Below are positions 23,589 through 38,428 of a DNA stretch of 64,000 nucleotides, piece by piece. The notes below the pieces were generated by a model. The model was not told the origin of the DNA. It saw only the letters and a list, made by a program, of their open reading frames with translations, and did not search any database. The stretch spans positions 1-64,000 of the forward strand of contig CAIYDQ010000035.1 in NCBI GenBank assembly GCA_903925075.1, read 5' to 3'. Numbering within the stretch: position 1 is the first letter of the stretch; each line of letters opens with the position of its first letter. This stretch comes from an uncultured Geobacter sp. (GTDB taxonomy: Bacteria > Desulfobacterota > Desulfuromonadia > Geobacterales > Geobacteraceae). A program made the position numbers and the translations under genes.

Positions 23589-24590
23589 ATGAAAGCGATA
23601 ATCGTCAGCAGATTTGGAGCTCCGGAGGTCATGCAGATCGAAGAGGTGGCGGATCCGGTCGCCGGTGAGGGGCAGGTGCTGGTGCGGCTGCATGCGGCCG
23701 GGGTGAACCCGGTCGATACCTATATCCGTTCGGGCCACTACTCGCAGCAGGCGCATCTCCCCTATACGCCGGGCATGGACGGGGCAGGGGTGATCGAGGC
23801 CATCGGTCCGGGCGTGAAGCATCGCAAGCAGGGAGAGCGGGTTTATATAGCGCGTTCCCTGTCGGGGACCTACGCGGAGAAGGTGCTTTGTGCCGAAAGC
23901 CAGACCTACCCTCTTCCCGAGGGGGTCTCGTTTGCCCAGGGGGCGGCGATCGGCGTGCCGTATGGCGCGGCCTACCGCGCCCTGTTCCAAAAGGCGCGCG
24001 CTCTCCCCGGAGAGAACCTCTTGGTGCACGGGGCCAGCGGCGGCGTCGGCATCGCGGCCGTGCAACTGGCGCGCGCGGCGGGGCTCAGGGTCATCGCGAC
24101 GGTAGGCAGCGAGCAGGGGCGCCGGCTGGTGATGGAAATGGGGGCGCACGCCGTCCTTGACCATCATCAGGCGGACCACCTGGCCCGGATCGGCGAGCTC
24201 ACCTGCGGAGTCGGGATCGACGTCGTTCTGGAGATGCTGGCCAACGTGAATCTCGGTCAGGACCTGGGAGCGCTGGCCAAGGGAGGGCGGGTGGTGGTGG
24301 TCGGCAGCCGGGGGCGGGTTGAGCTCGACCCGCGCGACGCCATGACCCAGGAGTCGGTGATCATGGGAATGACCCTTTTCAACGCCACCGAAAAGGAGCT
24401 GCGCAGCATGCACGCGGCCTTCGCCGCCGGCCTGGAAAACGGGACGCTGCGTCCGGTGGTGAGCCGCGAACTGCCGCTTTCCGAAGCAGCCGTTGCCCAT
24501 CACGAGGTGATCGAGACCAGCACCCTGGGCAAGATCGTGCTGATTACCGAGCAAGGGGCCGCGGACAGAGGGATACCGGCGAAGAATTAA
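23589..24590 (+). CDS. NADPH:quinone oxidoreductase, zeta-crystallin type
   Basis: This 333-residue medium-chain reductase begins MKAIIVSRFGAPEVMQIEEV, typical of the Qor/zeta-crystallin group. It has NPVDTYIRSG and LPYTPGMDGAGVIEAIGPGV in the GroES-like half and LLVHGASGGVGIAAVQLARA as the NADPH-binding Rossmann motif. No structural or catalytic zinc ligands are seen. The ATG at 23589 is chosen because GGAGGG lies just upstream; an earlier in-frame start would include the hairpin. It likely reduces quinones or enones with NADPH in the cytoplasm. It stands alone. Confidence 0.88.
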   Translation: MKAIIVSRFGAPEVMQIEEVADPVAGEGQVLVRLHAAGVNPVDTYIRSGHYSQQAHLPYTPGMDGAGVIEAIGPGVKHRKQGERVYIARSLSGTYAEKVLCAESQTYPLPEGVSFAQGAAIGVPYGAAYRALFQKARALPGENLLVHGASGGVGIAAVQLARAAGLRVIATVGSEQGRRLVMEMGAHAVLDHHQADHLARIGELTCGVGIDVVLEMLANVNLGQDLGALAKGGRVVVVGSRGRVELDPRDAMTQESVIMGMTLFNATEKELRSMHAAFAAGLENGTLRPVVSRELPLSEAAVAHHEVIETSTLGKIVLITEQGAADRGIPAKN

Positions 24591-24631
24591 AGGCCCTTGG
24601 CTGAGGACGGCGCTCTGCGGGCGCAAAACAA

Positions 24632-24660
24632 TTGATTGGCGGGCTCGAAATTGATAAAAT
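24632..24660 (+). promoter_or_regulatory. Sigma-70 promoter upstream of 24715 gene
   Basis: TTGATT (24632-24637) and TAAAAT (24655-24660) are separated by 17 bases, about 55 bases before the start codon of the hypothetical gene. Confidence 0.55.
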
Positions 24661-24714
24661 TAACGTGGGTTGTTTAGCGTGGGTTGGCTGTTTCGGCCCA
24701 GAGGGAGGACGGTC

Positions 24715-25089
24715 ATGCAAGGATACGAACTGGCAAAGGCGATCCAGAAAGAGCGCAACGAACATCCTGAGCGTGTTTTTATCAAATGGTGGCGCAAGGA
24801 GGAGGACTACATAGATTTCGATCTGGTCGCCAGATTCCTGGAAAAGATCGACTTCGGCGGCACCGAGCTTGCCGGGTTTGAATTGATCGATCAGGAGGAG
24901 ATGTGGCGAACCGTCGAAAGACGTTGCGATGGAAGAGCGAGCAAAGTGAATCGGGACGGCAGTTGGTTTCTGATCTGGACTCCTCCCAAGGGAGCGGAAG
25001 TGGAGGAGAGCGCCCCGGAATACCCCTACAACCCGGAGTCGCTGCTAAAGGTCCTGGATCTGGAGACCAACTACAACTACGTCGATTGA
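24715..25089 (+). CDS. Hypothetical protein, 124 residues
   Basis: No family is recognised. The product is soluble, fairly acidic and rich in aromatic residues (FIKWWRKEEDYIDFD near 22-36 and SWFLIWTPP near 81-89). It shows no signal peptide, membrane segment or cysteine motif beyond a single Cys. The start at 24715 is set by GAGGGAGG 6 bases upstream. A good promoter lies further upstream, and the gene stands alone between the quinone oxidoreductase and the convergent glycerate kinase. Coding status is supported by the ribosome binding site, the promoter and the balanced composition. Confidence 0.7.
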   Translation: MQGYELAKAIQKERNEHPERVFIKWWRKEEDYIDFDLVARFLEKIDFGGTELAGFELIDQEEMWRTVERRCDGRASKVNRDGSWFLIWTPPKGAEVEESAPEYPYNPESLLKVLDLETNYNYVD

Positions 25090-25143
25090 AACGGAACAAC
25101 GGCTGGCGGGGGCGCGGCGAACCGTGCCCTGCGCCGTTCGCCG

Positions 25144-26478
25144 TTACGCCGTCGACACCGCGCCGTCCGCGTCCGGCCGCGAAAGAACCATGATCTGCAA
25201 GTCCATGACGTTGGTGCCGGTCGCTCCGGTTCTCAAGAGTCCGGCGCAGCGATCAAGGAGGATATAGGCGTCGTTATCGGCCAGAGACCGCTCGGGAGCA
25301 AGCCCCGCAGCCTTGGCAAAGGCGGCGGTTTCCCCGTCCACGATGCCTCCCGCCGCGTCGGTCGGGCCGTCGATGCCGTCGGTGCCGGCTGAAAGCAAGG
25401 TGATGCCCGGTTCCCCCTCAATGGCCATGGCGAAGGCCAGCGCCAATTCCTGATTCCTGCCCCCTTTCCCCATGCCCGCCACCCGCACCGTAGTCTCCCC
25501 CCCGCTGATCAGGCAGAGCCGCTCGCCGGGCGCGAGCCTTTTCCTCTCCGAGAGAGCGATAGCGGCCAGTTTTTCGCCGGCCCACCTGGCCTCGCCGCAG
25601 ACAGGCTCCTCCAGCAACCGCACCCTCACTCCTTGCAGAGACGCCGCGCGTGCGGCTGCCTCCTGCGCGTCGCGGTTGCGCGCGGCGATTATGGTGGTGA
25701 CCGCGGAAAATATCGGGTCACCCTGCTTGGGAGTCTCCGCGACCGCCCCCGCTGCGCCTTGCCGCAGCCGCTCCAGCACCGGACCGGGAACCTGCGAGGA
25801 GATCCCCAGTCGATTCAGCACCCCCAGCGCGTCGGTGAAGCTGGTCGGATCGGAGTAGGCAGGGCCGGAGGCGATTACGTCAGGGCTGTCGCCGGGGACG
25901 TCGGAGATCGCCAGCGAGATCAGCCGTGCCGGGTGGGCGAGGGCGGCGAGTCTTCCCCCCTTGATGTTCGACAGGTGTTTGCGGACCGTGTTCAGTTCCA
26001 GGATATCGGCGCCCGCCTCCATCAGCAGGCGCGAGGTCTGCAGCTTTTGCTCCAGTGAGATGCCGTCAGCGGGCGCCGTGAAGAGCGCCGATCCGCCGCC
26101 GGAAATCAGCAGGAGCAGCAGAGTCTTGTCGTCCGCGGCGCGCGCCAGCTCCATGATGCGCAAGCTTGCGGCCAAGCCGTCTCGGTCCGGGTGAGGGTGG
26201 CCCGCCGCCGCGACCTCGATGCGGTGCAGCGGCGTCGTCGGTTGGCAGCCGTGCGGCACGATCACCAAACCGCAGTCGATGGACGCACCCAGTATTTCCT
26301 CGGCGGCCCGCGCCATCGGGAGTGCGGCCTTACCAAAGCCGGCGACGACCAGCCGGTCGAACCCGCCGCTCAGGTAGAGCTCTCGGACCCTGCGCAGATG
26401 AGGGAGCAGCGCCCGAAAGGGGTCGACCGCAGCCAGCGCCGCGCAGAATAAGCTGTCAACCAGTTCACGATCAGTCAT
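25144..26478 (-). CDS. Glycerate 2-kinase, MOFRL family
   Basis: This 444-residue kinase phosphorylates D-glycerate, probably to 2-phosphoglycerate, in glyoxylate and serine-pathway carbon flow. The N-terminal half has the GFGKAALPMARAAE lysine loop, LLISGGGSALFTAPADGI, and LNTVRKHLSNIKGGRLA. The C-terminal MOFRL domain has GKGGRNQELALAFA and GTDGIDGPTDAAGGIVDG. Length and motif order are typical. It lies 15 bases downstream of the peroxiredoxin gene and is probably co-transcribed with it. Confidence 0.92.
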   Translation of the reverse strand: MTDRELVDSLFCAALAAVDPFRALLPHLRRVRELYLSGGFDRLVVAGFGKAALPMARAAEEILGASIDCGLVIVPHGCQPTTPLHRIEVAAAGHPHPDRDGLAASLRIMELARAADDKTLLLLLISGGGSALFTAPADGISLEQKLQTSRLLMEAGADILELNTVRKHLSNIKGGRLAALAHPARLISLAISDVPGDSPDVIASGPAYSDPTSFTDALGVLNRLGISSQVPGPVLERLRQGAAGAVAETPKQGDPIFSAVTTIIAARNRDAQEAAARAASLQGVRVRLLEEPVCGEARWAGEKLAAIALSERKRLAPGERLCLISGGETTVRVAGMGKGGRNQELALAFAMAIEGEPGITLLSAGTDGIDGPTDAAGGIVDGETAAFAKAAGLAPERSLADNDAYILLDRCAGLLRTGATGTNVMDLQIMVLSRPDADGAVSTA

Positions 26479-26493
26479 GGAAGAAACCCGCCT

Positions 26494-26970
26494 CTATCTC
26501 CCCTTGGCCAGCATCTTGAAGAAGTCCAGCACCTTGTCGGGGTGTTCCGACGCCTTGGGTATTTTCGGCCAATGTTTGATGACCGTGCCTTCCGGCGAAA
26601 TCACCACCGTCGAGCGGATGCTGCCGATAGTCGTCTTGCCGTAGGCCACTTTTTCTCCATAGGCGCCGTAGGCGGTCATAACGGCTGCGTCCGGGTCCGA
26701 GAGGAGCGTGAAGGGTATCTTGTACTCGCAGACGAACTTGTCGTGGGACTTAAGAGAGTCCTTGCTGACGCCCACCAACACCGCTCCCAGTTGCTCGAAA
26801 AGCGGCTGCAGCTTGCTGAAGCCGACCGCTTCGGCAGTGCACCCCGGCGTGTTGTCCCTGGGGTAGAAGTAGAGCACGAGGATCTTGCCGGCGTAATCCC
26901 TGAGGGTGTGCAGCTTGCCGTCGCTTCCCTGCAGCTTGAAGTCAGGCGCGGGACGTCCTTCTAAAAACAT
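26494..26970 (-). CDS. Peroxiredoxin, BCP/PrxQ subfamily
   Basis: This 158-residue thiol peroxidase reduces hydroperoxides in the cytoplasm. The peroxidatic cysteine is C44 in the PxxxTxxC-type motif FYPRDNTPGCTAEA. The classical BCP resolving cysteine five residues later is a valine here (V49). The only other cysteine is C81 (KFVCEYK), which could act as a distant resolving residue as in PrxQ variants; otherwise the enzyme is of the 1-Cys type. The Arg near R119 in SIRSTVVI completes the active site. Upstream is a good GGAGG ribosome binding site. Confidence 0.9.
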   Translation of the reverse strand: MFLEGRPAPDFKLQGSDGKLHTLRDYAGKILVLYFYPRDNTPGCTAEAVGFSKLQPLFEQLGAVLVGVSKDSLKSHDKFVCEYKIPFTLLSDPDAAVMTAYGAYGEKVAYGKTTIGSIRSTVVISPEGTVIKHWPKIPKASEHPDKVLDFFKMLAKGR

Positions 26971-27097
26971 GTAGTCCTCCTTTTGTTGCCTTCATGAGGT
27001 TTTGTAAGATAGCAGAGCGGAGATGATACGGCAAGCAAGAGAGCGACTCCCGGTATCGAGCGCGATCTAGCGGTTGTCTCTTCCCGGGAAACCGGTT

Positions 27098-27148
27098 ATG
27101 CTGCGCTGCAAGCACGAGATCCAAGGAGGAGGCATGAAAGCGGCATGA
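27098..27148 (+). promoter_or_regulatory. Possible leader peptide coupled to the HExxH gene
   Basis: An ATG at 27098 opens a 16-codon frame ending MKAA, and an ATG at 27134 with AAGGAGG 4 bases upstream lies in the same frame. Both end at TGA 27146-27148, which overlaps the ATG (27145) of the next gene in an ATGA junction. The ribosome binding site is well placed for 27134 and too far (15 bases) for 27145. Initiation at the small frame followed by re-initiation is therefore plausible. Confidence 0.4.
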
Positions 27149-27693
27149 GAGGCGGCGCGATTAAACAGTTGGCCGATGGGGGGACGCAGTCTTGGCACCA
27201 CTTTGCCGGATTGCTGCTGGTCATCGCCCTGGCAGTGATGCAAGGGCGAGTCGGCAGAATCGGCACCTTTTGGCAGATCGCTTGGGCTCTTCCCGGCACC
27301 ATTCTCCATGAACTCTCCCACCTGCTGGTCGCCGCTTTCACCGGTGGCAGGCCCGTCGGCTTCAGCGTCGTCCCGCGCCGCGAGGGAAGCCGTGGTCCGG
27401 TGGAGTACTGGCGGCTTGGTTCGGTGACCATCAGTCGCCCCGGACCCATCTCAGCGCTCCCTTCCGCTCTTGCGCCGCTCGCCCTGAACGCCGTGGCCTA
27501 TTACCTCTACCGGCACTGGGCTACCTGGTTTCCGTCAGACCTGCCGCACACCCTGCTGATGTACGCAGCCATCTATCTTTTCAGCTACAGCTCCATCCCT
27601 TCCGGCCAAGACCTTAAAGTCGCCGTGTCCAGTCCGACCGGTCTGCTCCTCTACGCCGCCCTTGGCTGCGGCGCCTGGTTCCTCTGGCGCTGA
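27145..27693 (+). CDS. Small integral membrane protein with HExxH zinc-protease motif
   Basis: This 182-residue protein has about four hydrophobic segments (about 20-33, 43-65, 105-125, 140-175). The motif HELSH at residues 55-59 lies inside a membrane segment (LPGTILHELSHLLVAAFTGG), as in site-2-type intramembrane metalloproteases. No typical downstream NPDG aspartate motif of classical M50 proteases is recognised; a later PSGQDLKVA offers a candidate Asp. It may be a minimal M50-like protease or a non-proteolytic relative. It stands alone, with the coupled mini-frame at its start. Confidence 0.7.
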   Translation: MRGGAIKQLADGGTQSWHHFAGLLLVIALAVMQGRVGRIGTFWQIAWALPGTILHELSHLLVAAFTGGRPVGFSVVPRREGSRGPVEYWRLGSVTISRPGPISALPSALAPLALNAVAYYLYRHWATWFPSDLPHTLLMYAAIYLFSYSSIPSGQDLKVAVSSPTGLLLYAALGCGAWFLWR

Positions 27694-27815
27694 AGCAGTT
27701 CGGGTCTTTCATTGAGTAAAATTAATATATCGAGCGCGGAAATGCTTGGTTTGTTTTAACCTTGCAGGGAGTTTCTTGGCCGGAGCGCCGCTGAGGGATG
27801 AATGGGCGAGAGTTG

Positions 27816-27968
27816 AATGGTAATAAAATTACCATTGGTTCGTATGTTGCTGTATTCGTTGTAGTTATTTTTGGAGGCAAAATGGTAATAAAATTACCAC
27901 TCCTGTTAGGTTTACTGTGAATTCAATGAGTTACAACTTTTGGCAATGGTAATAAAATTACCATTGCC
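27816..27968. repeat. Three phased copies of a 19-base palindrome
   Basis: ATGGTAAT-AAA-ATTACCAT occurs at 27817-27835, 27882-27900 (last base C) and 27946-27964. Start-to-start distances are 65 and 64 bases, near six helical turns. Copy 3 has the longest arms, 12 bp (27942-27968), 9 bases beyond the stop of the minus-strand maturase gene, and may also end that transcript. The 283-base gap is AT-rich relative to its surroundings. Each copy on the plus strand also begins a short frame reading MVIKLPL; copy 2 has GGAGG upstream. The copies resemble operators or a small repeat element. Confidence 0.85.
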
Positions 27969-27976
27969 TTCCAAGG

Positions 27977-29266
27977 TCACTTCCGAAGCGTCAGATCCTG
28001 CCGTATGAATTGCTCCAAAGTAGCGTCCAAGGATTCTTTACGACAGTCCAACCCTGCAATTGAACCCGTGTTGAGCCTTTGCAGGAAACGGCAGCCTCCG
28101 AAACAAAGCGGCAGATATGCGCAGTTGAGGCATTCGTCGTTTTTCCAGGCACCCAGGTCGTGAGACGCGCAATGGTCGCCTATTCCTGTCGCCAGGGTCC
28201 CGATCTGCATATCCGGCCATCCCATGAATGCAGGGCACTTGAACAACGCGCCGTCGAAACCGACCACCAACTCATTCTCGGATTCAATCATGCAGCCGGA
28301 GAGCTTGGGTCTTGGCGTATTGAATCCTCGTTTGAGAATCTGTTCGCGCAGATACAGCGCGGCCTCCAGCAGCCAAGGCTCGCTGGTGCATGCGCACCCC
28401 ATGGGGAAGTCTGAGAGGCCGGCGTCGCCTGCCTTGGGCATTATCGGCCCGAACATGATCATTTCCAACGACTCCGGGCTTATCCCCTCCTGCAGTAAAA
28501 AGTCTAGCAGTTCCGGGAACCTGCGGTAGTTGTCCCGGCTGAAGTTGCCCCCCACCTGGACCCGCAACAGGCCGCAGACTTCCTTGATGTTGGCGACTAT
28601 TGCGGCGAAACTACCGCTCCCCTTGGCGAATGGGCGTTGCCGGTCGTGTATGTCCTGCGGCCCGTCCAGGGTGACTCTCGCGCCGGAGAGCCCGAGCGGG
28701 AGCAATTCGGAGACGGTTTTCCTGTTGAGGAGGGTGCCGTTGGTAACCAAGGAGAAGGCGTAGCCGGTTCCTTGGTCGCTGGCCGCCTTGAGAAGCGGCT
28801 GCGAAATACGGCGTATGAGCGGGACCGAAAGCAGCGCCTCGCCGCCATAGAAATCCATCTGGATGTCCTTACCGGCAGCCAGCGGGCCGTCCAAGATGGT
28901 CTGCACCAAGAGGTCGGCGGTGGCGTCGTCCATGTAGCTTTTGCCCCGGAAATGATCCTCGTAGCAGTAGCAGCAGGCGAGATTGCAGTCCAGGTTGAGG
29001 GTCACCAAGGTGGTGAAACGCCGCCCTTTCTGGTTGGAAAGCTCGAAAATCGAGCGCAGCTGTTCGCGTTCGGCTGCCGCGTCCTCGACCAAAATCCCCA
29101 GCCGAGCCAAGGTTTCCAACTCCGGACCGGTCACCTTCCCGCTTTTGATTTTTTCGACCAGGGAACTGGAAACGGTGAGCTTAGAGCCGCGTAGCGTCGA
29201 GTAGATCAGGACCGAGTCGGGATTGTCTGCGGCAGGGTAGAGTTTGATATAGCTGGAGAGTTCCAT
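27977..29266 (-). CDS. Radical SAM/SPASM peptide maturase (geopeptide type)
   Basis: This 429-residue enzyme should modify the small peptide encoded just upstream. The N-terminal 75 residues resemble the peptide-handling region common in SPASM maturases. The radical SAM cluster motif is CNLACCYC (C94, C98, C101). The SPASM domain carries the pattern C-x(n)-G-x4-C in SGCMIESENELVVGFDGALFKC (written here by motif, about 323-343). It also has ECLNCAYLPLCFGGC (C-x2-C-x5-C-x3-C) and a final Cys in GLDC, which bind auxiliary clusters. Related enzymes form thioether or C-C crosslinks. The gene begins 60 bases after the precursor. No protease or exporter is adjacent. Confidence 0.88.
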   Translation of the reverse strand: MELSSYIKLYPAADNPDSVLIYSTLRGSKLTVSSSLVEKIKSGKVTGPELETLARLGILVEDAAAEREQLRSIFELSNQKGRRFTTLVTLNLDCNLACCYCYEDHFRGKSYMDDATADLLVQTILDGPLAAGKDIQMDFYGGEALLSVPLIRRISQPLLKAASDQGTGYAFSLVTNGTLLNRKTVSELLPLGLSGARVTLDGPQDIHDRQRPFAKGSGSFAAIVANIKEVCGLLRVQVGGNFSRDNYRRFPELLDFLLQEGISPESLEMIMFGPIMPKAGDAGLSDFPMGCACTSEPWLLEAALYLREQILKRGFNTPRPKLSGCMIESENELVVGFDGALFKCPAFMGWPDMQIGTLATGIGDHCASHDLGAWKNDECLNCAYLPLCFGGCRFLQRLNTGSIAGLDCRKESLDATLEQFIRQDLTLRK

Positions 29267-29288
29267 TATGAAGTGAATCCTTGTAGTT

Positions 29289-29312
29289 AAGGGGGGAGAT
29301 GTCTCCCCCCTT
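29289..29312 (-). terminator. Hairpin between precursor and maturase genes
   Basis: A perfect 11-bp palindromic stem (AAGGGGGGAGA with TCTCCCCCCTT, 2-base centre) lies between the peptide stop and the maturase start. The bases after it on the minus strand are AACTAC, so there is no strong T-run. It probably stops part of the transcription or protects the short peptide message, favouring precursor over enzyme, as is usual in RiPP loci. Confidence 0.6.
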
Positions 29313-29326
29313 ATGGGTTTACCTGG

Positions 29327-29428
29327 CTACCTGATTATTCCTAAAGCGGAAATGCAGCAGATAGTTTGCGGGCCACTGACAAAGGGGTTGGTCCCTTCCT
29401 CGTGTACCTCCAAGATTTCGGTTTGCAT
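29327..29428 (-). CDS. RiPP precursor peptide (geopeptide-like), 33 residues
   Basis: The gene was found by reading the minus strand upstream of the radical SAM gene. It has an unusually strong ribosome binding site, AAAGGAGGTGATC, just before the ATG at 29428. The peptide has an acidic leader-like N-terminus (MQTEILEVHEEG) followed by TNPFVSGPQ. It ends in a hydrophobic core-like segment, TICCISALGIIR, with adjacent Cys24-Cys25 and Ser27. Small size, strong translation signal, Cys pair and position directly before a SPASM maturase all support a modified peptide. Expected product is a Cys-crosslinked peptide of unknown activity. A plus-strand frame overlaps it but has no ribosome binding site. 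Confidence 0.85.
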   Translation of the reverse strand: MQTEILEVHEEGTNPFVSGPQTICCISALGIIR

Positions 29429-29479
29429 CGCGATCACCTCCTTTTATTTGAACTATGTTCATCAAGCTCTGGACTGCGT

Positions 29480-29493
29480 AACACAGCTGTGTT
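29480..29493. promoter_or_regulatory. 14-bp perfect palindrome in the divergent RiPP/TonB control region
   Basis: AACACAGCTGTGTT lies 13 bases before the TonB receptor start and 51 bases before the precursor start on the other strand. It may be an operator serving both genes, or a small hairpin in the receptor leader. No convincing sigma-54 or sigma-70 promoter was found on either strand of this 78-base region. Confidence 0.5.
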
Positions 29494-29506
29494 ATTAACG
29501 CTCTTA

Positions 29507-31351
29507 ATGAAACGCAATATCCATGCCCCCGAGATTATCGTTACGCTGTTGCTGATGCTGATTTCTATCGGTGTCTTTCCCTATTCTGCGCTCTGCGAGG
29601 TGCAGGAGGAGACACTGTCGGTCCTGGGAAGCCGAGAGACGGAAACGACCGCCACCGGCAGATTCAGCCGGCTCATTTCCCGAACCGCAGAGAACGTCAC
29701 AATCATCACCGCCACCGAGATCGAGGCGCTCAACGCGCACACGCTCGCAGACGTTTTGGCCACCGTTCCGGGAATCCTGCTGGAAACTCAGACCGGATCA
29801 GCCAGCCTTGCCTACCTTCACCTGCAGGGCTCAAACTCCGGCCATGTACTGGTGTTGCTGGACGGTATCCCGATCAACAACCTTGCCGACAACTTTCCCG
29901 ATCTGGGCTTTGTGCCGGCCTATATCATCGAAAGGGTCGAGGTGGTCAAGGGCGCTGCATCCTCCAGTTGGGGACAGGCGCTTGGAGGGGTGATCAACGT
30001 CATCACCAAATCTCCCGATGCGGAACGGACGGCGAGCGGGGCGCTGTCCGCTTCCCACGGCATGCGCGGCACCGACGACGCCCACGCCGAGATATCTGGC
30101 ACTTCGGGCCACCTTGGATATCATCTGGCCGGCGGCTATTTCAGCTCCGGCGGCTTCCAGCCCAATACCTACGCAAGCCTCGGCTCCGCCTACGGCAAGC
30201 TGGTCTACGATTTGCCGGGACAGGCAAGAGGGATCTTTTCCCTGCACTACACCGAAGCCAATCGCGGCGAACTTTCTTTCGTCCCCTTGGACGTGGAAGG
30301 AAAAGACTCGCTGCGGCGTCTCACGCTTGCCCTCTCCCTCAACAAACCGCTTGGCGACCAGGTCGAACTGGAGATCTCCGCACGCAATTCCAACAGCAAA
30401 GTACAAATAGATGCCGGCCTCATATCCTCGCATTCTCTGTTGCAAACTATAAAAGACGCCGAGTCCGTCAGGGGCGGGAGCGCGAAACTCCTCTGGCACG
30501 GCAGCGGCAACGTCATGGTGCTCGGGGCGGATTACGACCACGTTCGGCTCAATCAAAACGATGCCTTGAACCACGTCGACATTCTCAACAGAGAGGCCGA
30601 CAGGTGGGGCTTTTACCTGAACGACACCTATACCTTTGGTCGTTTTTCCCTTTCCGCCGGAGCCCGCTACGACATCACCGGGACCTCCGGGGACCAGATC
30701 AGCCCATCGGTGGGAATGACTTGGCAGCTCACGGAAAATACCACGGTTCGCGGCTATACGGCAAAGGGATATAGTTTGCCGTCTTTCAATTTACAGCGCG
30801 GGGCGGAAAAAGTCTGGACCACGCAGATCGGTGTGGAGAGCAGCGACATCCCCTACCTCTGGCTGAAAGGGACCCTGTTCCGAAACGACACCTGGGACAT
30901 CACCGATTTCGATTCGCAAAGCGGGCAGTACGTACTGGAACGGCAGATCAAAAAAGGAGTGGAAACCGAAGCCAGGACCACGCCGTTTTTCAATACCTCG
31001 CTCTCCATGGGCTACACCTTCGTCGATGCCAGGCGCAGCGCGGACGACAGCATCGTCAAGGACCTGCCGCGCCACACGGCTATGTTGGGCCTTCGCTACG
31101 ACGACGGCGCCTGGCTGCGCCTGCTGGTAAACGGCAGGCATATAGACATGCAGGCCGCCTCCTTCCACAACGGCAGTTATGCCGGTTTCGTCTGGGATTC
31201 CCACCTGACGGTCACCCCTCTCGGGCGCGGCGAGCAACGGCCGGAATTTTTCTTCTCGCTGCATAACGCCTTCGATAGGCCCCAGTACATAGACGAGGCC
31301 TACAAGAACCCCGGCCGGTGGGTAGAGGGCGGAGTGAGGTGCCGATTTTGA
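29507..31351 (+). CDS. TonB-dependent outer-membrane receptor
   Basis: This 614-residue receptor has a signal peptide (about 1-27, after MKRN). It is followed by a plug domain with VTIITATEIEALNAHTLADVLATVPGILLE and VLVLLDGIPINNL at about 60-165, typical of BtuB/CirA-like receptors. A 22-strand barrel pattern ends in the aromatic terminus VRCRF. It should import a scarce ligand across the outer membrane using TonB energy. The ATG at 29507 is chosen because it opens the signal peptide; the ribosome binding site is weak. The gene is divergent from the RiPP precursor and overlaps the binding-protein gene that follows. Ligand unknown. Confidence 0.9.
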   Translation: MKRNIHAPEIIVTLLLMLISIGVFPYSALCEVQEETLSVLGSRETETTATGRFSRLISRTAENVTIITATEIEALNAHTLADVLATVPGILLETQTGSASLAYLHLQGSNSGHVLVLLDGIPINNLADNFPDLGFVPAYIIERVEVVKGAASSSWGQALGGVINVITKSPDAERTASGALSASHGMRGTDDAHAEISGTSGHLGYHLAGGYFSSGGFQPNTYASLGSAYGKLVYDLPGQARGIFSLHYTEANRGELSFVPLDVEGKDSLRRLTLALSLNKPLGDQVELEISARNSNSKVQIDAGLISSHSLLQTIKDAESVRGGSAKLLWHGSGNVMVLGADYDHVRLNQNDALNHVDILNREADRWGFYLNDTYTFGRFSLSAGARYDITGTSGDQISPSVGMTWQLTENTTVRGYTAKGYSLPSFNLQRGAEKVWTTQIGVESSDIPYLWLKGTLFRNDTWDITDFDSQSGQYVLERQIKKGVETEARTTPFFNTSLSMGYTFVDARRSADDSIVKDLPRHTAMLGLRYDDGAWLRLLVNGRHIDMQAASFHNGSYAGFVWDSHLTVTPLGRGEQRPEFFFSLHNAFDRPQYIDEAYKNPGRWVEGGVRCRF

Positions 31352-32235
31352 GGGGGTTAATTCTCTTGATCGTCGCGCTCGCCTGCGCCCTTCCTGCCGT
31401 GGCCGACGCTTACCAGGTGCTGCTGCTGATCAGCTCGCGGGACAAGGTTTACCAGGAAGCGGTCAGCGGTTTGCGCCAAGGCAGGGATTTCTCCGACCGG
31501 GTGATTTTTCTCTCCGACTACGCCGAGGCGGATCTGGCGCGGACCATTCGCGAGGACCGGCCGCATCTCATAGCCGCGGTCGGCGACCGGGCACTTGCCG
31601 CCGCGAGAAAGGTCCGGCAGATCCCGGTGGTCTCCCTGATGGCGGTGAGTTTCCACAGGATACCCGGCTCAACGCCGAACATAACCGGAGTGGACCTGTT
31701 CATTCGGCCCGAGCACTATATGAACCTGTTCGCGGCCATGAAACTATCCAGGGTCGGCGTGCTCTACGATCCGGAGAAAAGCGGCTATTACCTGAAGAAG
31801 GCCCTGCAACAGGCGTCCAAGTCGGGCATCGAGCTGCTGCCCAAGGTGGTTAAATCCTCCGAGGAGGTAGTCGGCCAGCTTGCCAAGTCCCGGGGAGAGA
31901 TGGATGCGATCTGGATGATACCGGACGCCTCGGCGGTCAGCCACCAGTCGGCCGAAGCGTATTTTCTGTTTTCCATGAGGCAGCAGGTCCCGGTAATCTC
32001 CTTCAGCAGTTCGCATCTGCGGCTCGGGGCAGCCGTGGTCATCGAGGCGGACCAGGAGGAAATGGGCAGGCAGGCCGGGGAAATGGTCCGGGCGATTTTG
32101 CAGGGAACGCCGGTCTCCGAACTGCCGCCGACGACGCCGCGCAAGATCATGCTCAAGGTCAACCAGCGCGTGTTGAATCACCTGGGCATCCCGGCCGCGG
32201 CGATCATGCGGCTGCCGAATTTTTCCAAGGAGTAG
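31339..32235 (+). CDS. Periplasmic ABC-type substrate-binding-like protein
   Basis: This roughly 298-residue protein has a signal peptide (LRGLILLIVALACALPAVADA) and two lobes of the ABC_sub_bind/DUF534-like fold. Supporting segments are LIAAVGDRALAAARKVRQIPVVSLMAV and RVGVLYDPEKSGYYLKKALQQASKSGIEL. No permease or ATPase gene is adjacent. Since a histidine kinase follows 3 bases later, it more likely presents a ligand to that kinase. The start is uncertain: GTG 31318 and TTG 31348 (overlapping the receptor stop) are also possible, and GTG 31339 has GGAG just upstream. Confidence 0.8.
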   Translation: MPILRGLILLIVALACALPAVADAYQVLLLISSRDKVYQEAVSGLRQGRDFSDRVIFLSDYAEADLARTIREDRPHLIAAVGDRALAAARKVRQIPVVSLMAVSFHRIPGSTPNITGVDLFIRPEHYMNLFAAMKLSRVGVLYDPEKSGYYLKKALQQASKSGIELLPKVVKSSEEVVGQLAKSRGEMDAIWMIPDASAVSHQSAEAYFLFSMRQQVPVISFSSSHLRLGAAVVIEADQEEMGRQAGEMVRAILQGTPVSELPPTTPRKIMLKVNQRVLNHLGIPAAAIMRLPNFSKE

Positions 32236-32238
32236 CCG

Positions 32239-33804
32239 ATGGCCGCCGCTCGTCGCATCGCCCGATCGCCTTGGAGCTTCCGCTACAAGCTCTTCGCCAT
32301 CTTCACGCTGTTCACCGCCGTCATTTCGGCGACCTTTACCGCCATCTACACCTTCAAAGAGGTGCGGGCCTACAAGCTTCGGACTGCCGAGAAGTCGCAG
32401 CTTCTGGCCACCATCCTGGCCAATTCCGCCCGGCTGCCGCTCTATGGCGGAGACCAGGGGAGCCTGGAGTCGTTGGCGATTGAAACCGCCGGTTATCCGG
32501 GGGTGAAGAGGGTGACCATAGCCGACGCGGCAGGAAAGTTTCTGGCCCAGGCCGGCGGTCGGCCCGATCCCTCGGTCGATTTGGACCTGTGCACGGCGGA
32601 GGTAACGCCGGGGCTTTCGGGGAACTCGGGCGGCCCCCTGTTCAGCGTACGGCCTCGGGACGACAAGCCGCTGGGGAGGGTGTCCGTGTTCATGGACGGC
32701 GGCGAATTGACCCGCGCAATCCGCTCCATGATCAAAACGTCGGCCTTGACCGCCCTGATATTCTGGTTGGCGGTCACCGGCGTCAGCTATCTGGTGGTGA
32801 ACTGGATCACTCGGTCGCTCAGGCCCCTGACCGAAGGCATCCGAGCGATCCGGGGAGGCGACTACGAGTTCAGGATATGGACCGTAAATCGTGACGAACT
32901 GGGAGACGCGGCCCTCGCCGTGAACGAGCTGGCCGCCGAACTGTCCCGGCGCGAGCAGGAGAACAAGAGTCTGCAGCAGGACCTGGTCAACTCCATGAAG
33001 CTGGAGATGAGCGAGGAGCGAAAGAACCTGATGGCGAAGCTGATCCAGACCAACCGGATGACTTCGCTCGGCCTCTTGGTTTCCAGCATGGCGCACGAGA
33101 TAAACACGCCCAACGGCGCCATCAAGCTGGCCGGACAGCAGATAGCCAAGGTCTGGAAAAGCGCGGTGCCCATTCTGGACGCAGTCGCCAAGGAGGAGGG
33201 GGATTTTCTGCTGGGGGGCGGGGCGTACAGCATGGTGCGGGAGGAGATGCTGCAAGCCACCGCCTCGGTGGGGCGCAGTTCGGAGCGGATCGAGCGGGTT
33301 ATCCAGGATCTGCGGGCTTTCAGCGCCGGAGCGCGCGGCGAGAAGGGCCAGGATGTCAGCATAAGCCAGGTCGTCGCCGACGCCGTCGCCATCATCCGCG
33401 CCCATGGCCGCTACGGCAACATCTCCATCCGCAGCCGAGTGCAGCCGGACCTCCCCCCCGTGGTCGGGAACCATCACCAACTGGAGCAGGTGATCATCAA
33501 CCTGCTGTTGAACGGCATGCAGGCGATACCGGACGGGAAAGCGGGAACCGTCGGCATCGACACCGAGATCGGCGCCGAGACCGGGGAAATGCTGATCATG
33601 GTCAGCGACGACGGCGAGGGGATTCGGCCCGAACACCTGGGGCAGCTCATCGAGCCCTTTTTCTCGACCCGCCTGGAGAAGGGGGGAAGCGGACTGGGGC
33701 TCTACATCTCGAACTTTATCATTTCGGAGCACCAGGGCCGCCTGGAAGTCGCCTCGGAGGTGGGCGTAGGAACCACCGTAACCATCCGCCTTCCGGTAGC
33801 GTAG
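32239..33804 (+). CDS. Membrane sensor histidine kinase
   Basis: This 521-residue kinase has two membrane segments (about 17-38 and 170-190) enclosing a periplasmic sensor of about 130 residues, then HAMP (about 191-245). The phospho-acceptor region SSMAHEINTPNG carries H286. The ATPase domain has NLLLNGMQAI (N box), DDGEGI (G1) and GGSGLGLYI (G2). It likely senses the ligand of the preceding binding protein and phosphorylates the convergent sigma-54-type response regulator. It lies 3 bases after the binding-protein gene. Confidence 0.9.
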   Translation: MAAARRIARSPWSFRYKLFAIFTLFTAVISATFTAIYTFKEVRAYKLRTAEKSQLLATILANSARLPLYGGDQGSLESLAIETAGYPGVKRVTIADAAGKFLAQAGGRPDPSVDLDLCTAEVTPGLSGNSGGPLFSVRPRDDKPLGRVSVFMDGGELTRAIRSMIKTSALTALIFWLAVTGVSYLVVNWITRSLRPLTEGIRAIRGGDYEFRIWTVNRDELGDAALAVNELAAELSRREQENKSLQQDLVNSMKLEMSEERKNLMAKLIQTNRMTSLGLLVSSMAHEINTPNGAIKLAGQQIAKVWKSAVPILDAVAKEEGDFLLGGGAYSMVREEMLQATASVGRSSERIERVIQDLRAFSAGARGEKGQDVSISQVVADAVAIIRAHGRYGNISIRSRVQPDLPPVVGNHHQLEQVIINLLLNGMQAIPDGKAGTVGIDTEIGAETGEMLIMVSDDGEGIRPEHLGQLIEPFFSTRLEKGGSGLGLYISNFIISEHQGRLEVASEVGVGTTVTIRLPVA

Positions 33805-33831
33805 GGGCGAACCTGCTATTCGCCCCTACGC
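33799..33831. terminator. Hairpin between convergent kinase and regulator genes
   Basis: A 13-bp perfect stem (GCGTAGGGGCGAA with TTCGCCCCTACGC, 7-base loop) overlaps the kinase stop codon. No T-run follows on either side, so its role as a bidirectional terminator is tentative. Confidence 0.5.
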
Positions 33832-33861
33832 CGGGCGGTTACCAACTAAACCTTTCAAGGA

Positions 33862-35298
33862 TCATCGCCCAAGCGCCGGCTTTTCCAAGTCGGCCACCTT
33901 TTTCCTCACCGTCTGCCGGCAAAGCCCCAAAAGGTCGGCAGCGGCGCTTTTCTTCCCTCCGGTCGTCTTCAGCGCCTCCTCCAGCATCACCACCTCCACC
34001 TGTTCCATGGTGGGAAAAGACGGAAACACCATATGCAGGCTGAACTGGCTGCTGCCAAACCGGCGGGCCTCGTCGCTCACCGCCTGCTGCTTTATGACGA
34101 TCTCCGGGAAATCGGCCGAGGTCAAGAGTCCGTCATGGTTGGCCACCACCGCGCTGCTCACCTTGTTGATAAGCTCCCTGACGTTGCCGGGATAGTCGTA
34201 TTCGGACAACAGGAAGCGCAATTCCGTGGAAACCTCGGGCGGCGCCTTGCCGACGTTCCTCGCCGCCACGTTGACATAGTGGTTCACCAGCGGCAGGATG
34301 TCGTCCCTGCGCTCCCTAAGGGGCGGGATGTGGAGGTTTAGACAGGAGAGCCGGTGGTACAGGTCCTCCCTGAAGGCCCCTTGCTGCTGCAGTTTGTTAA
34401 GGTCCTTGTTGGTGGCAGCCACGATGCGCGCGTCGTTTTTGAGGACCAGGTCCGAGCCGAGCCGGTAATACTCGTTTTCCTGGAGCAGGCGCAGCAGTTT
34501 GATCTGGGAGTTCAAAGAGAGGTCGCCGATTTCGTCCAGAAAAAGCGTGCCTCCCTGCGCCTTCTGAATCAACCCGTCCCGGCGTTCGTTCGCGCCGGTG
34601 AAAGCCCCCTTGTTGTGCCCGAAAAGGGTGTCTTCGAACATGAGCGCGTCGAGCCCGGCCACGTTCAGCGCGACGAAGTCGCCATTGAGGCCGCTCGCCT
34701 TGTGGATGGCTCGCGCCACCAGCTCTTTGCCCACGCCCGTTTCGCCGGTGACGACCACGGGATAGCGCGCGGGAGCGATGGTCTCGATGACCTTGAAGAT
34801 CGCCTGCATTTTTTCGTTCTGGGAGAGGATCTCGCTGAAAACGCTGGGACAGACGACGGGATCGCCCAGCAGGTAATTTTGCAATTGCCGGTTTTGCGCC
34901 GACAATTCGGTGATTCTTAGCGCGCTGGAGATGCTCGACAGCAGCCGCGTGGTGTCGACCGGCTTGGTGACGTAGTCCATGGCGCCCTGTTTGATGCAGG
35001 ATACGGCGGTGTCGACGTCGTTGACGCCCGTCATGACGATAACCGGCAGGTTGGGGAATCTCTTGGCGATAACGGGCAGCAGGTCACCGCCGGAAAGCCC
35101 GGGCATGACCCAATCCAGGAAGAGAATCGAGTAAATGCCCTTTTCAAGTTCGGCGAGCAGCTTGCCGCTGTCGGTAAGCGTGACCACGTCGCACACCTTG
35201 TGGGAAAGAAGGACGAAACGGATCTGTTTCAGGAAATCCTCGTCGTCGTCCACGAAAAGCGCGACCGGAAGTTGTCCGGTTCTCAGCAGGTCGGTCAT
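33862..35298 (-). CDS. Sigma-54-dependent response regulator (NtrC type)
   Basis: This 478-residue regulator has a receiver domain (about 10-125) with phospho-acceptor D62 (LFLDWVMPG). An AAA+ domain follows, with Walker A GETGVGKE at 185-192 and an intact GAFTGA sigma-54 contact loop at 231-236. A C-terminal FIS-type helix-turn-helix ends the protein (KKSAAADLLGLCRQTVRKKVADL). It should activate RpoN-dependent promoters when phosphorylated. It is convergent with the histidine kinase, which is its likely partner. Targets may include the RiPP/TonB genes, but no clear -24/-12 element was found next to them. Confidence 0.92.
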   Translation of the reverse strand: MTDLLRTGQLPVALFVDDDEDFLKQIRFVLLSHKVCDVVTLTDSGKLLAELEKGIYSILFLDWVMPGLSGGDLLPVIAKRFPNLPVIVMTGVNDVDTAVSCIKQGAMDYVTKPVDTTRLLSSISSALRITELSAQNRQLQNYLLGDPVVCPSVFSEILSQNEKMQAIFKVIETIAPARYPVVVTGETGVGKELVARAIHKASGLNGDFVALNVAGLDALMFEDTLFGHNKGAFTGANERRDGLIQKAQGGTLFLDEIGDLSLNSQIKLLRLLQENEYYRLGSDLVLKNDARIVAATNKDLNKLQQQGAFREDLYHRLSCLNLHIPPLRERRDDILPLVNHYVNVAARNVGKAPPEVSTELRFLLSEYDYPGNVRELINKVSSAVVANHDGLLTSADFPEIVIKQQAVSDEARRFGSSQFSLHMVFPSFPTMEQVEVVMLEEALKTTGGKKSAAADLLGLCRQTVRKKVADLEKPALGR

Positions 35299-35494
35299 GT
35301 GTAGGTACCCTCCTGATTTTGACGATGCAAAAAAGCGGCCTTAAATAACGGCAGAGGCAAAAAAATGGGGCCGAGCATCGAGCCGGGGCCGGCGGGCAGC
35401 TCGCCTTTATGAGAGTCGCTGCTCCCCTCGCTCTATCCGAGTCATCCATTCGTCTTGCTGCGTTTCCGCTTCGATGATTACCTGCGAAGGTCTT

Positions 35495-35523
35495 TTGACA
35501 GCCGCCCCTAATGCGGCGATAGT
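35495..35523 (+). promoter_or_regulatory. Promoter with inverted repeat in its spacer
   Basis: TTGACA (35495-35500, perfect -35) and GATAGT (35518-35523) are spaced by 17 bases. The spacer itself is an inverted repeat, GCCGC-CCCTAAT-GCGGC. A repressor or MerR-like activator could sit there. It lies 34 bases upstream of the patatin-like gene. Confidence 0.55.
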
Positions 35524-35557
35524 TTGTGGTCGAAGGCGTTTGACTTGGAGGTGAGCT

Positions 35558-38428
35558 ATGGGTTCGAAACGGGAAGAAGGCGAAGCCGACGGCGGAAAAA
35601 TGAGGGTGGACGGCCAGAGGTGCTATCCGTTCTCCTATGCCTTTCAGGACGAGCTGGAAGCGCAGGGCATCGTTGCCGACTTGCCCGTCCCGCCGGCGGG
35701 GGAAGAGGAGCTGCCGGCATGGGAGCGCAGGCGACTGGAAGCGGCCTACGATCTGGCGCACGCGCAAGACCCGCCCCTGGCCGCGCTTTGCCTCTCCGGC
35801 GGCGGCATCCGCAGCGCCACTTTCAACCTCGGGATGCTGCAGGGGCTGGCCTCGATCGGCTTGCTCGACAAGTTCAACTACCTCTCCACCGTCTCCGGCG
35901 GCGGATACATCGGCAGCTGGCTCAGCTCCTGGACGAGAGACGCGGCCATCGCCGAGGTTTCCACCGAGCTGGAAAACCCCTTCCCGGACGGCAACGAGAT
36001 CCGGCAGATCAGGTTCTTGCGCGATTACAGCAATTACCTGAGCCCGCGGGTGGGGCTTTTGACCTTGGACACCTGGACGCTCTTCGCCATTTACCTGCGA
36101 AACCTCCTGGTGAACTGGCTGATGCTGGTCCCCTTGCTGTTCGCCATTCTCGTCCTTCCCCGCCTGTACATCGCCTATCTTGAGCCGCTGGGAGACCAAG
36201 CCGGTTTTCTCTGGAGCGGCTTCGCTTTCGGGGTGCTGGGGAATTTCTGCACGGCGATCGATCTCCCCACCATCGCGGCGGGACCCGCGTGGTGCCGCAG
36301 CTTCTCGCGCCGGGCCTTCGTCCCCTTCCTGCTCCTGTCCGCCTGCTCCCTTTCCTTTTACTGGGCCTCCCTCGACTTCTGTATCCTCCCCGGTTGGGGT
36401 GCCGCGGCGAGCTTCGCCGGTTTCGGCGCCTGCACCTATTGGAGCGGCTGGGCGGCCCCCTCGCTGCTCTGCCTCGGGAAAGGAGCACCCTCTCTCGGCC
36501 AGGCGAAAAGCCGCCGCTGCCGGACCGCGCTCGCCTTCAACGCCATCGCCGCAGCGTCCGGGGCCGTCGGCGGGATGTTGGCGTACTTGATGGGGGTCAA
36601 GGTCTTTCCCGCCCTGCTCGCCGCCACCTGGTTTCCGAAACCTGCGTACGCCGCGCTGGCGGTCCCCGCCATCATGAGCGTATTCCTCATTTCAGGTGTG
36701 GTTTTCATCGTGGGGACCAACAAGTTCACCGGCGACGACGACCGCGAATGGTGGGGGCGCGCCGGAGCCCTGGTCATGCTGGTGATTTTGGTGTGGCTGC
36801 TGCTTTTCCTGAGCGCCGTCTACGGTCCGATGCTCGTATTGCATCCGTTCTGGGAGACCAAGGTCAAACTGGACGGCATTGCGACGACCCTGGGCCTTGG
36901 CGGGGTCACCGGTCTGGTGACGGCCCTTTTCGGAAAGAGCAAAAGGACTCCGGCGGGCCTCAAGGGGGACGAGCAGAAGCAGAGCCCCTTCGGCAACTTC
37001 AGCTTGCAAGCCGGGGCGCTCTTGTCCATCTTCCTGCTGGTGATCACCCTCTCTTCGGTGGCGACCCGCTTCATCGAGAGCCGCATGTTTCCCGGCCAGC
37101 CGACGGCGATGGATATGACCGATTACCCGATTCCGAGCAAGTTCGCCCAGTCCCCGAAGAGGGCGACGCCTTTCGGGCTGTCGGCAAAAGAAGCGAGGCA
37201 TATGAGCATCCTGTGGCTGCCGCATCGACGAAGCCCGCTCATGACCGAGGAGGGCGGCGTCTCGCTGCTCTGGCTGATGCTCCTCGCGCCGCTGGCGTTC
37301 TCCTTGCTGGTCGGCTGGCTGGTGAACCCCAACAGGTTCTCTCTGCACGCCATGTACAGGGCGCGCCTGATCCGCGCCTACCTCGGCGCGGTAAGGGATG
37401 CGCGTCAAACCAGGAAGCCTCATCCGTTTACCGGGTTCGATCCGGCGGACAACTCCCGGATGAGCGAGCTGTCCGGCAAGCCGATGCAGATCGTCAACAT
37501 GGCCTGGAACGTGGTAAAGGGGAAACGGCTCGGTTGGCAGGAGAGAAAGGCCATGTCGTTCACCGCCTCCAAACTGCACTGCGGCAGCGCCAACGTCGGC
37601 TATCGGCCTGCCGGCGCATACGGCGGCTCCGGCGGCATCACCTTGGGCACAGCCATGGCGATATCAGGCGCAGCCGCCAGCCCGAACATGGGGTACCATT
37701 CCTCGCCGCTCATCACCTTCGTGATGGCCTTTTTCAACGTCAGGCTGGGGTGGTGGATGGGCAACCCGAATTCCGGCAGTTGGAGCAAGGTAGGCCCGAT
37801 CATGGGCTTCGGACCCATGATCCGGGACGCCTTCGGCCTAACCAGCAGCGACAGCGACTACATTTATCTCTCCGACGGCGGGCATTTCGAAAACCTGGGG
37901 CTGTACGAAATGGTCAGGAGGCGCTGCCGCTATCTGGTGGTGGGGGACGCCTCCTGCGATCCGCAGGGCTCCCTGGAGGATCTCGGCAATGCCATCAGGA
38001 AAATAAGGGTGGACCTGGGGATAGAGATCGACCTGGATCTTGCCGGGCTGCAGCCCCGGGCGGAGGATAAGGACGGGCCGGTGAGGACGAGCGCATCCCA
38101 TTTCGCCCTGGGAAAAATAAGATATTCCCTGGTGGACAAGGGGAGGGAAGACGGGAAGATCCTCTACATCAAGCCGTCGCTCTGCCGGGAGCTGCCGGGG
38201 GACGTGTATCATTATGCGAGGGAGTTCGCGGAATTCCCGCACCAAACCACCGCCGACCAGTGGTTCAACGAATCGCAGTTCGAAAGCTACCGCAAGCTTG
38301 GGAGGCACAGCATCGAGCACTTGACCGGCACCCAAAGGGAAAAGGGGGGCAAACCCGGGCTCGGCTTCGACTCCTTCGAGCAGTTCTTCGCTTTCGCGGC
38401 GAGAAGGGTCGGACGCGGCAAGGCGTAG
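35558..38428 (+). CDS. Large membrane patatin-like phospholipase
   Basis: This 956-residue protein holds a patatin catalytic core split by a membrane region. The oxyanion loop SGGGIRSATFN (80-90) and the nucleophile region STVSGGGYIGSW with S113 lie at the N-terminus. The catalytic aspartate lies in LSDGGHFENLGLYEMV (D773). Between them are about ten hydrophobic segments (roughly 187-207, 216-236, 254-278, 283-305, 328-350, 365-386, 403-429, 485-502, 568-588). The dyad is thus complete, and lipid acyl hydrolase activity at the membrane is likely. GGAGGTGA precedes the start. It stands alone, convergent with a sensor kinase gene 11 bases away. Confidence 0.88.
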   Translation: MGSKREEGEADGGKMRVDGQRCYPFSYAFQDELEAQGIVADLPVPPAGEEELPAWERRRLEAAYDLAHAQDPPLAALCLSGGGIRSATFNLGMLQGLASIGLLDKFNYLSTVSGGGYIGSWLSSWTRDAAIAEVSTELENPFPDGNEIRQIRFLRDYSNYLSPRVGLLTLDTWTLFAIYLRNLLVNWLMLVPLLFAILVLPRLYIAYLEPLGDQAGFLWSGFAFGVLGNFCTAIDLPTIAAGPAWCRSFSRRAFVPFLLLSACSLSFYWASLDFCILPGWGAAASFAGFGACTYWSGWAAPSLLCLGKGAPSLGQAKSRRCRTALAFNAIAAASGAVGGMLAYLMGVKVFPALLAATWFPKPAYAALAVPAIMSVFLISGVVFIVGTNKFTGDDDREWWGRAGALVMLVILVWLLLFLSAVYGPMLVLHPFWETKVKLDGIATTLGLGGVTGLVTALFGKSKRTPAGLKGDEQKQSPFGNFSLQAGALLSIFLLVITLSSVATRFIESRMFPGQPTAMDMTDYPIPSKFAQSPKRATPFGLSAKEARHMSILWLPHRRSPLMTEEGGVSLLWLMLLAPLAFSLLVGWLVNPNRFSLHAMYRARLIRAYLGAVRDARQTRKPHPFTGFDPADNSRMSELSGKPMQIVNMAWNVVKGKRLGWQERKAMSFTASKLHCGSANVGYRPAGAYGGSGGITLGTAMAISGAAASPNMGYHSSPLITFVMAFFNVRLGWWMGNPNSGSWSKVGPIMGFGPMIRDAFGLTSSDSDYIYLSDGGHFENLGLYEMVRRRCRYLVVGDASCDPQGSLEDLGNAIRKIRVDLGIEIDLDLAGLQPRAEDKDGPVRTSASHFALGKIRYSLVDKGREDGKILYIKPSLCRELPGDVYHYAREFAEFPHQTTADQWFNESQFESYRKLGRHSIEHLTGTQREKGGKPGLGFDSFEQFFAFAARRVGRGKA

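Follow-up and report, generated by a model that had tools for sequence, protein, structure and literature searches.

The window analysed here, a stretch of 64,000 nucleotides from an uncultured Geobacter sp., carries a short peptide gene just upstream of a radical SAM enzyme gene, with genes for a receptor, a binding protein and a two-component system alongside. The features of this locus are as follows:

27977 to 29266, minus strand: radical SAM/SPASM maturase of 429 aa with an N-terminal domain of RRE-like make-up (TIGR04280, AlphaFold2 model, CteB match)
29288 to 29313, minus strand: stem-loop TAAGGGGGGAG/CTCCCCCCTTA between precursor and maturase (z -2.72)
29327 to 29428, minus strand: geopeptide-like precursor of 33 aa, MQTEILEVHEEGTNPFVSGPQTICCISALGIIR (upstream-frame detector, pN/pS, profile A3)
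29437 to 29442, minus strand: precursor ribosome binding site AGGAGG (read from the sequence)
29470 to 29494, minus strand: perfect 16-base palindrome TAACACAGCTGTGTTA (29479-29494), then GTCCA (29470-29474)
29507 to 31351, plus strand: TonB-dependent receptor, divergent from the precursor (PF00593 and PF07715)
29513 to 29528, minus strand: sigma-54-like promoter GGGCATGGATATTGCG, 100 nt before the precursor ATG and within the first receptor codons
31318 to 32235, plus strand: PF04392 periplasmic substrate-binding protein (Pfam match), with no ABC permease or ATPase nearby
32239 to 33804, plus strand: HAMP sensor histidine kinase (Pfam match)
33862 to 35298, minus strand: NtrC-type sigma-54 response regulator, convergent (Pfam match)

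The precursor frame starts with an ATG at 29428 and stops with a TAG at 29329-29327; eight bases separate AGGAGG from its start codon, and the maturase begins, with an ATG at 29266, 60 nt beyond its stop. The original prediction, made from the letters of the sequence, had described a short minus-strand gene at this position with a ribosome binding site 60 bases before the enzyme, and position, AGGAGG and gap were all confirmed. The Cys24/Cys25 pair and the hydrophobic C-terminal half TICCISALGIIR are likewise present as it described them. The peptide reads EILEVHEEG...ICCISALGIIR, with 8 residues C-terminal to the CC pair; the leader is acidic, and its stretch EVHEEG differs from the VLDEG, VLEEG or similar stretches of most relatives. 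The calculated monoisotopic mass is 3584.768 for the unmodified precursor and 2189.134 for residues 13-33, and each thioether would lower it by 2.016. It falls outside the geopeptide precursor model TIGR04229 (cut-off 30 bits), and its comparison with NCBIfam returned no family at E<=1, TIGR04229 included, a point that the original prediction had missed. The window peptide does satisfy a wider definition of our own, under which a geopeptide precursor is short, begins with ATG, lies immediately before the gene of a TIGR04280 enzyme, and carries the motif hydrophobic-x-hydrophobic-x-[DE]-x-G followed by a CC pair that has 7-15 residues C-terminal to it.

The enzyme matches NCBIfam TIGR04280 with 624.5 bits over residues 1-427 and profile positions 1-427 of 428; the cut-off of 400 is exceeded by 224 bits, which makes it a full member of the geopeptide maturases. 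The next NCBIfam models (CefB, TIGR04463, Clo7bot, nif11-type, PapB and QhpD-type) score between 95 and 135 bits, all well short of their own cut-offs. The CNLACCYC segment contains the CX3CX2C motif (C94, C98 and C101), and this motif and the seven SPASM cysteines (C325, C344, C379, C382, C388, C392 and C408), the two marks of a SPASM maturase, are invariant in 16 aligned maturases. The original prediction had correctly read the 429 residues, CNLACCYC and the full SPASM pattern, and the comparison with the NCBIfam geopeptide models that it had proposed came out in favour of TIGR04280. An eighth cysteine, C291, is also invariant in the 16 maturases; it lies outside the usual seven SPASM positions, beside a low-confidence loop (279-290), and is possibly an extra cluster ligand.

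The AlphaFold2 model of the maturase (29 sequences) has a mean pLDDT of 90.6 and a pTM of 0.88, with loop 279-290 poorly predicted. Its N-terminus, in the whole-length model, is composed of three strands and three helices (7-11, 18-23, 28-33, 34-42, 47-55 and 63-71). The best Foldseek match is CteB (5why, E 1.6e-22, 20% identity, N-terminal domain included), and the CteB structures 5why and 5wgg match the fold over the entire length of the maturase. A VIA alignment to CteB gave a Z of 23.8 and an rmsd of 4.6 over 374 aligned positions (residues 4-426). Ranked by Z, the same aligner placed anSME at the top (25.0, residues 82-429) and gave TigE 22.6 (residues 1-426); CteB and TigE are the matches whose alignments begin in the first residues of the maturase. 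By this ranking the catalytic part of the modelled enzyme is SPASM-like in general, a shared fold being no proof of the reaction.

CteB is a thioether-forming maturase of SCIFF peptides, or ranthipeptides (PMC8326336). The window enzyme lies outside the SCIFF maturase model TIGR03974 (78.7 bits, cut-off 425), and SCIFF precursors, as the same review describes them, have six Cys in about 45 residues, as against two in 33 here. By analogy with the nearest characterised enzymes, a thioether at the Cys pair would be the expected chemistry.

The original prediction had also suggested a search for a conserved small frame upstream of homologous maturases. We gathered 94 distinct maturase loci and applied a uniform motif detector to the 600 nt upstream of each of the 93 with at least 300 bases of upstream sequence (L064, with 131 nt, was left out). 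A CC frame was present in 59 of the 66 loci whose maturase scores at least 450 bits, as compared with 0/66 on the reverse strand and about 0.1 matches expected from dinucleotide shuffles. Among the weaker maturases (<450 bits) the detector was positive in 17/27, with one hit on the reverse strand and about 0.05 expected from shuffles. Four of the seven misses (L008, L049, L074 and L144) possess a precursor-like frame with a single Cys or an altered leader motif, the precursors of L008 and L049 having one Cys at the CC site; no precursor-like frame was seen upstream of the other three maturases (L060, L139 and L141). Two distant maturases of about 200 bits (L213 and L215) showed no precursor of the geopeptide motif in 900 nt upstream. 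Tandem precursor copies stand before a single maturase in L039, L050 and L053, and L039 also has two maturases in a row.

Common to the precursors are the leader motif [LI]-x-[VI]-L-[DE]-x-G and, mostly 8-13 residues further on, a CC pair that is followed by a tail of 7-15 residues; the commonest tail has 8 (29/80 precursors). Pooled over 13 related and non-independent precursor pairs, pS was 0.35, pN 0.079 and pN/pS 0.23, a ratio by which the precursors are under purifying selection. Precursor and maturase are, on the evidence of the sequences, a real pair of a named RiPP type, because the upstream frame recurs where the reverse strand gives none, pN/pS is low and the enzyme belongs to TIGR04280. 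The central claim of the original prediction, a RiPP-type precursor with a SPASM maturase of the geopeptide family, is thereby upheld, and the lack of a conserved upstream frame, which it had named as one of two refuting outcomes, did not arise. Its proposal of Thr22 and Ser27 as modification sites is unsupported, because the residues surrounding CC are variable in the 80 CC precursors, those at -2 and +2 relative to the pair included.

TIGR04229 recognises only some of these peptides. When it was applied to the peptides of ten relatives (E<=10), three passed the cut-off, three gave weak matches and four gave none. The model scores above its cut-off in 7/48 host-family genomes and gives any match at E<=0.1 in 25/48; a six-frame scan of the genome of the window at E<=0.1 returned the peptide of one other contig (C174) alone, at 16.5 bits. 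Since TIGR04229 passes in only 7 of the 48 genomes, annotations may lack many such peptides.

Signals of expression surround the precursor gene. Of the 80 regions upstream of precursors, 41 contain AGGAGG, as compared with 2.7 expected, and a G-rich/C-rich hairpin 3' of the precursor has a mean z of -2.8 over 80 spacers, 52 of them below -2. This hairpin is possibly an attenuator or processing hairpin; a search of positions 24000-36000 of the window against Rfam gave no match at gathering score. The hairpin would suit a small frame whose peptide, as an attenuator-type leader, regulates the maturase gene and is no substrate of the enzyme. We consider that explanation very improbable, given a conserved leader motif and Cys pair, the pN/pS ratio, the tandem copies before one maturase in L039 and L050, and a precursor that persists at L206 with no maturase downstream in the retrieved stretch.

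Upstream of the gene, 33/80 precursor loci have GTCCA no more than 90 nt from the ATG, and the hexamers TGTCCA and AGTCCA together number 31 against 4.4 expected; palindrome and GTCCA are a possible operator or promoter element. By eye, GTCCA often stands 15-16 bases after TANCA, and in same-genus loci it is preceded by the dyad GTG[CT]TAAnTTA[GTC]CAC. The sigma-54-like site of the window scores 21 of 23, a value reached in 0/50 shuffles. As a family-wide feature the sigma-54 promoter was rejected, the window site being retained as a local feature: scores of at least 20 were found in 9/80 upstream regions, compared with 2.2% of shuffles and 1/80 on the reverse strand, so that family-wide support for sigma-54 control is weak at the sequence level.

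The receptor, binding-protein and two-component genes are the most informative part of the locus. The original prediction made no mention of them, and this neighbourhood of the geopeptide pair is the new part of the finding. Neighbours were counted around the 67 maturase instances for which longer stretches were retrieved, L213 and L215 being kept in. A TonB-dependent receptor lies within 4 kb of the maturase in 64 of them (39 divergent upstream, 22 co-directional upstream and 3 downstream), when the chance of a receptor this close to a random point is about 1.5% by our arithmetic from 12 Plug matches in 6.55 Mb. The three instances without a receptor comprise L039 (its second tandem copy), L064 (at a contig end) and L215 (a distant homologue). 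A PF04392 binding protein occurs within 6.5 kb in 59/67 instances (L213 and L215 among the misses), a kinase-like match within 9 kb in 55/67, and a response regulator match within 9 kb in 31/67. Furthermore, the maturase exceeds the TIGR04280 cut-off in 42/48 host-family genomes, and all 42 possess a PF04392 binding protein, which lies within 8 kb of 49 of the 53 maturase copies, the other four being on short contigs or near contig ends. All four maturase loci of the genome of the window likewise have PF04392 and Plug matches nearby on the same contig, out of genome totals of 7 and 12.

This conserved module argues, at the level of gene neighbourhood, that the mature peptide meets an outer-membrane receptor. 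Because a binding protein without permease or ATPase adjoins a kinase, we propose sensing, which would be added to cytoplasmic uptake or replace it. In the mechanism that we favour, and to which we give an even chance, a modified Cys-Cys peptide is made, exported, recaptured by its own receptor and reported to the two-component system, as a metallophore or signal. The leader stretch ([LI]-x-[VI]-L-[DE]-x-G) would attach, as a strand, to the RRE-like domain at the N-terminus of the maturase, and the enzyme would make one or two thioether links, of ranthipeptide or sactipeptide type, from the Cys pair. An unlinked protease would then remove the leader, and the product would leave through an unlinked exporter. 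Free or metal-loaded, it would re-enter by way of the TonB-dependent receptor and be captured by the PF04392 protein, whereupon the kinase would signal to the sigma-54 regulator; a report through the kinase is proposed because no inner-membrane permease was seen nearby. The regulator would in turn adjust the cassette, and the product could be a metallophore with its sensor or a peptide signal. The chemistry, the export and the ligand of the geopeptide are what we infer in this scheme. Export and leader removal are its weakest steps, with no candidate genes at the loci.

The same gene order allows a different reading, in which receptor, binding protein and two-component system are devoted to the import and sensing of some unrelated small molecule (such as a corrinoid, chelate or aromatic compound) and the geopeptide, unsecreted and intracellular or periplasmic, serves that uptake, for instance in the role of cofactor or regulator. 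Near the maturase loci no exporter and no leader protease recurs, and the best NCBIfam matches, both far below cut-off, are a vitamin B12 receptor model for the receptor (120.5 bits, cut-off 599.7) and, as sole match of the binding protein, the tryptophan-binding TrpX (50.5 bits, cut-off 390). Receptor modules without a maturase or visible precursor also exist. An exclusive pairing of receptor and binding protein with geopeptides, suggested by the phylum sample, was rejected by the host-family search, because 31 of 79 binding-protein copies stand apart from maturases, more than 8 kb away or on other contigs (at least four of the 31 are perhaps split loci, the unpaired maturase being on another contig, at its end or on a short one). 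The association, as read from gene positions, holds from maturase to receptor and not in reverse. Outside the genome of the window, 17 of 18 genomes of its genus have one binding-protein copy away from the maturase.

Twenty of these 31 maturase-free loci were retrieved. Receptor, binding-protein and kinase matches occur together in 19 of them, L242 being without a kinase match, and several have a kinase gene divergent from the receptor gene, at the place where the peptide would be expected. A precursor scan of the 20 loci found no convincing frame in any; the receptor module therefore also serves where no peptide is encoded beside it, and could have a different ligand. The receptor is uncut in 16 loci (L239-L249, L251, L253 and L255-L257), and the four in which a contig end cuts it (L250, L252, L254 and L258) were excluded from the receptor tree.

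In quick trees with SH-aLRT support only, the maturase-free receptors were scattered in several places among the geopeptide receptors, and three other TonB receptors of the genome of the window stood apart from the geopeptide receptor clade with a support of 100. Note that two of the eight other receptor stretches of this genome (L232 and L233) are absent from the 68-receptor tree, and that a later tree was made without the long-branch entries L197_17559, L228 and L229 but retained the three other receptors and L227. A receptor on contig C100 of the same genome (L227/L237) grouped with the geopeptide receptors; no maturase or binding-protein match and no convincing precursor were found in its 14 kb. 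Scattered receptor-only loci fit a loss of the producing genes with the receptor retained, although a pre-existing receptor family that gained producing genes is a possible alternative on the same tree.

This scatter, as secondary loss or piracy would give, speaks against an unrelated ligand. So does the orphan precursor MREEHDDLLVLEEGSDTEMPMTCICTTSVTKIK (L206:11443-11544, in G199:C22), which still faces receptor and binding-protein genes in a retrieved stretch of 19 kb that contains no maturase, two maturases being present elsewhere in its genome; a receptor can thus accompany a peptide without the enzyme. In this orphan, C-x-C replaces CC. On balance we regard an unrelated ligand as unlikely, while keeping it as the principal rival of a recaptured peptide.

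Co-variation was analysed over 49 loci in tests that keep shared ancestry in. Maturase and receptor distances correlated with an r of 0.79. The core correlated with the receptor when the maturase was controlled (partial r 0.28, 0/2000 permutations as high), and also with the maturase when the receptor was controlled (partial r 0.21, 0/2000 permutations), as plain co-inheritance would give. The leader correlated with neither.

The product could also be an antimicrobial of bacteriocin-like kind, with the receptor providing self-protection or kin entry. Many SPASM-modified peptides are antimicrobials, and the cores are variable apart from the Cys pair. However, no gene family of at least 80 aa beyond receptor, maturase, binding protein, kinase and regulator occurs in more than 9/66 instances, ABC ATPases are nearly absent (1/50 loci by motif), and the maturase is widespread in the host family. 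For SCIFF peptides, the review cited above takes wide spread as contrary to an antimicrobial role (PMC8326336). An antimicrobial product appears improbable to us, more so than an unrelated ligand of the receptor.

Returning to the peptide that is made, recaptured and sensed, its cassette can be compared with known systems. The geopeptide models TIGR04229 and TIGR04280 describe the same maturase family and a short CC peptide before the enzyme, but the link to receptor and sensor is absent from their names. The LuxP/LuxQ/LuxO system likewise joins a binding protein in the periplasm to a membrane kinase and a sigma-54 response regulator, yet it is not known to include a TonB receptor, and it has a small borate-containing ligand and a binding protein of another family. 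The window regulator scores 277.5 bits against the LuxO model (cut-off 800), and several other NtrC-type models score above it. Methanobactin (MbnA, MbnB, MbnC, MbnT and MbnE) is also made ribosomally and has a TonB-dependent importer and a periplasmic binding protein of its own, according to PMC7558416 and PMC3621798; its modifying enzyme and chemistry differ. MbnE is related to OppA/AppA (PMC7558416) and the binding protein here is of PF04392, while methanobactin loci have a MATE exporter (PMC3621798) and geopeptide loci no recurring one. A Pfam scan of nine larger window proteins found no MbnB or MbnC.

Geopeptides are a family that has been named yet is uncharacterised. In the open-access literature, subscription journals and preprints being outside the scope of the search, we found no paper on the family or TIGR04280 and no description of a receptor-linked cassette; the name turned up inside gageopeptides and other Bacillus lipopeptides, which look unrelated, and in the passages of PMC4289311 on Geobacter, the genus appears only among lasso-peptide candidates. 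In the phylum sample 31 of 395 genomes pass the maturase cut-off, that of the window included, and named loci include Geotalea toluenoxydans, Desulfuromonadales, Desulfobulbaceae, Desulfurivibrionaceae and Nitrospirae MAGs, full-length named relatives being 38-52% identical to the window enzyme. A link to receptor and sensor in the host family, the phylum sample and some Nitrospirota makes the role of geopeptides testable. If the favoured mechanism is true, most host-family genomes (the 42 with a maturase) would make a peptide that they also perceive, which would matter for how metals are handled or how cells signal to one another in iron-reducing sediments. More tentatively, and with somewhat less than even confidence, geopeptides at large may serve Gram-negative anaerobes as ribosomal signals or as metallophores that are sensed. 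Radical SAM enzymes would make them, dedicated TonB receptors would recapture them, and a periplasmic binding protein, kinase and sigma-54 regulator would read them, the receptor-only loci of relatives belonging to eavesdroppers or pirates.

The genome of the window has four TIGR04280 loci: the window itself (C35), C174, C199 and C300. Profile A3 found the four peptides in this genome and otherwise nothing better than E 0.28, a search that is circular for these peptides because the profile was built including all four. The C300 maturase (G000:C300:23953-25235, L238) has an in-frame TGA, each piece scoring below the cut-off, and the precursor upstream looks intact; judged from the reading frame, the split marks either a pseudogene or a draft-assembly error.

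Three copies of a palindromic 22-mer, AATGGTAATAAAATTACCATTG, lie 3' of the window maturase (27816-27837, 27881-27902 and 27945-27966) with a spacing of 64-65 bases. The genome contains 22 copies of its core TGGTAATWWWATTACCA and none of the reversed control, and the copies are often paired about 65 bases apart, with the central A/T run opposite. Among 258 retrieved loci the 22-mer was found in two only (L001 and L033), both of which are the window's own stretch. By its sequence and distribution it looks like a dispersed element of the REP/REPIN type.
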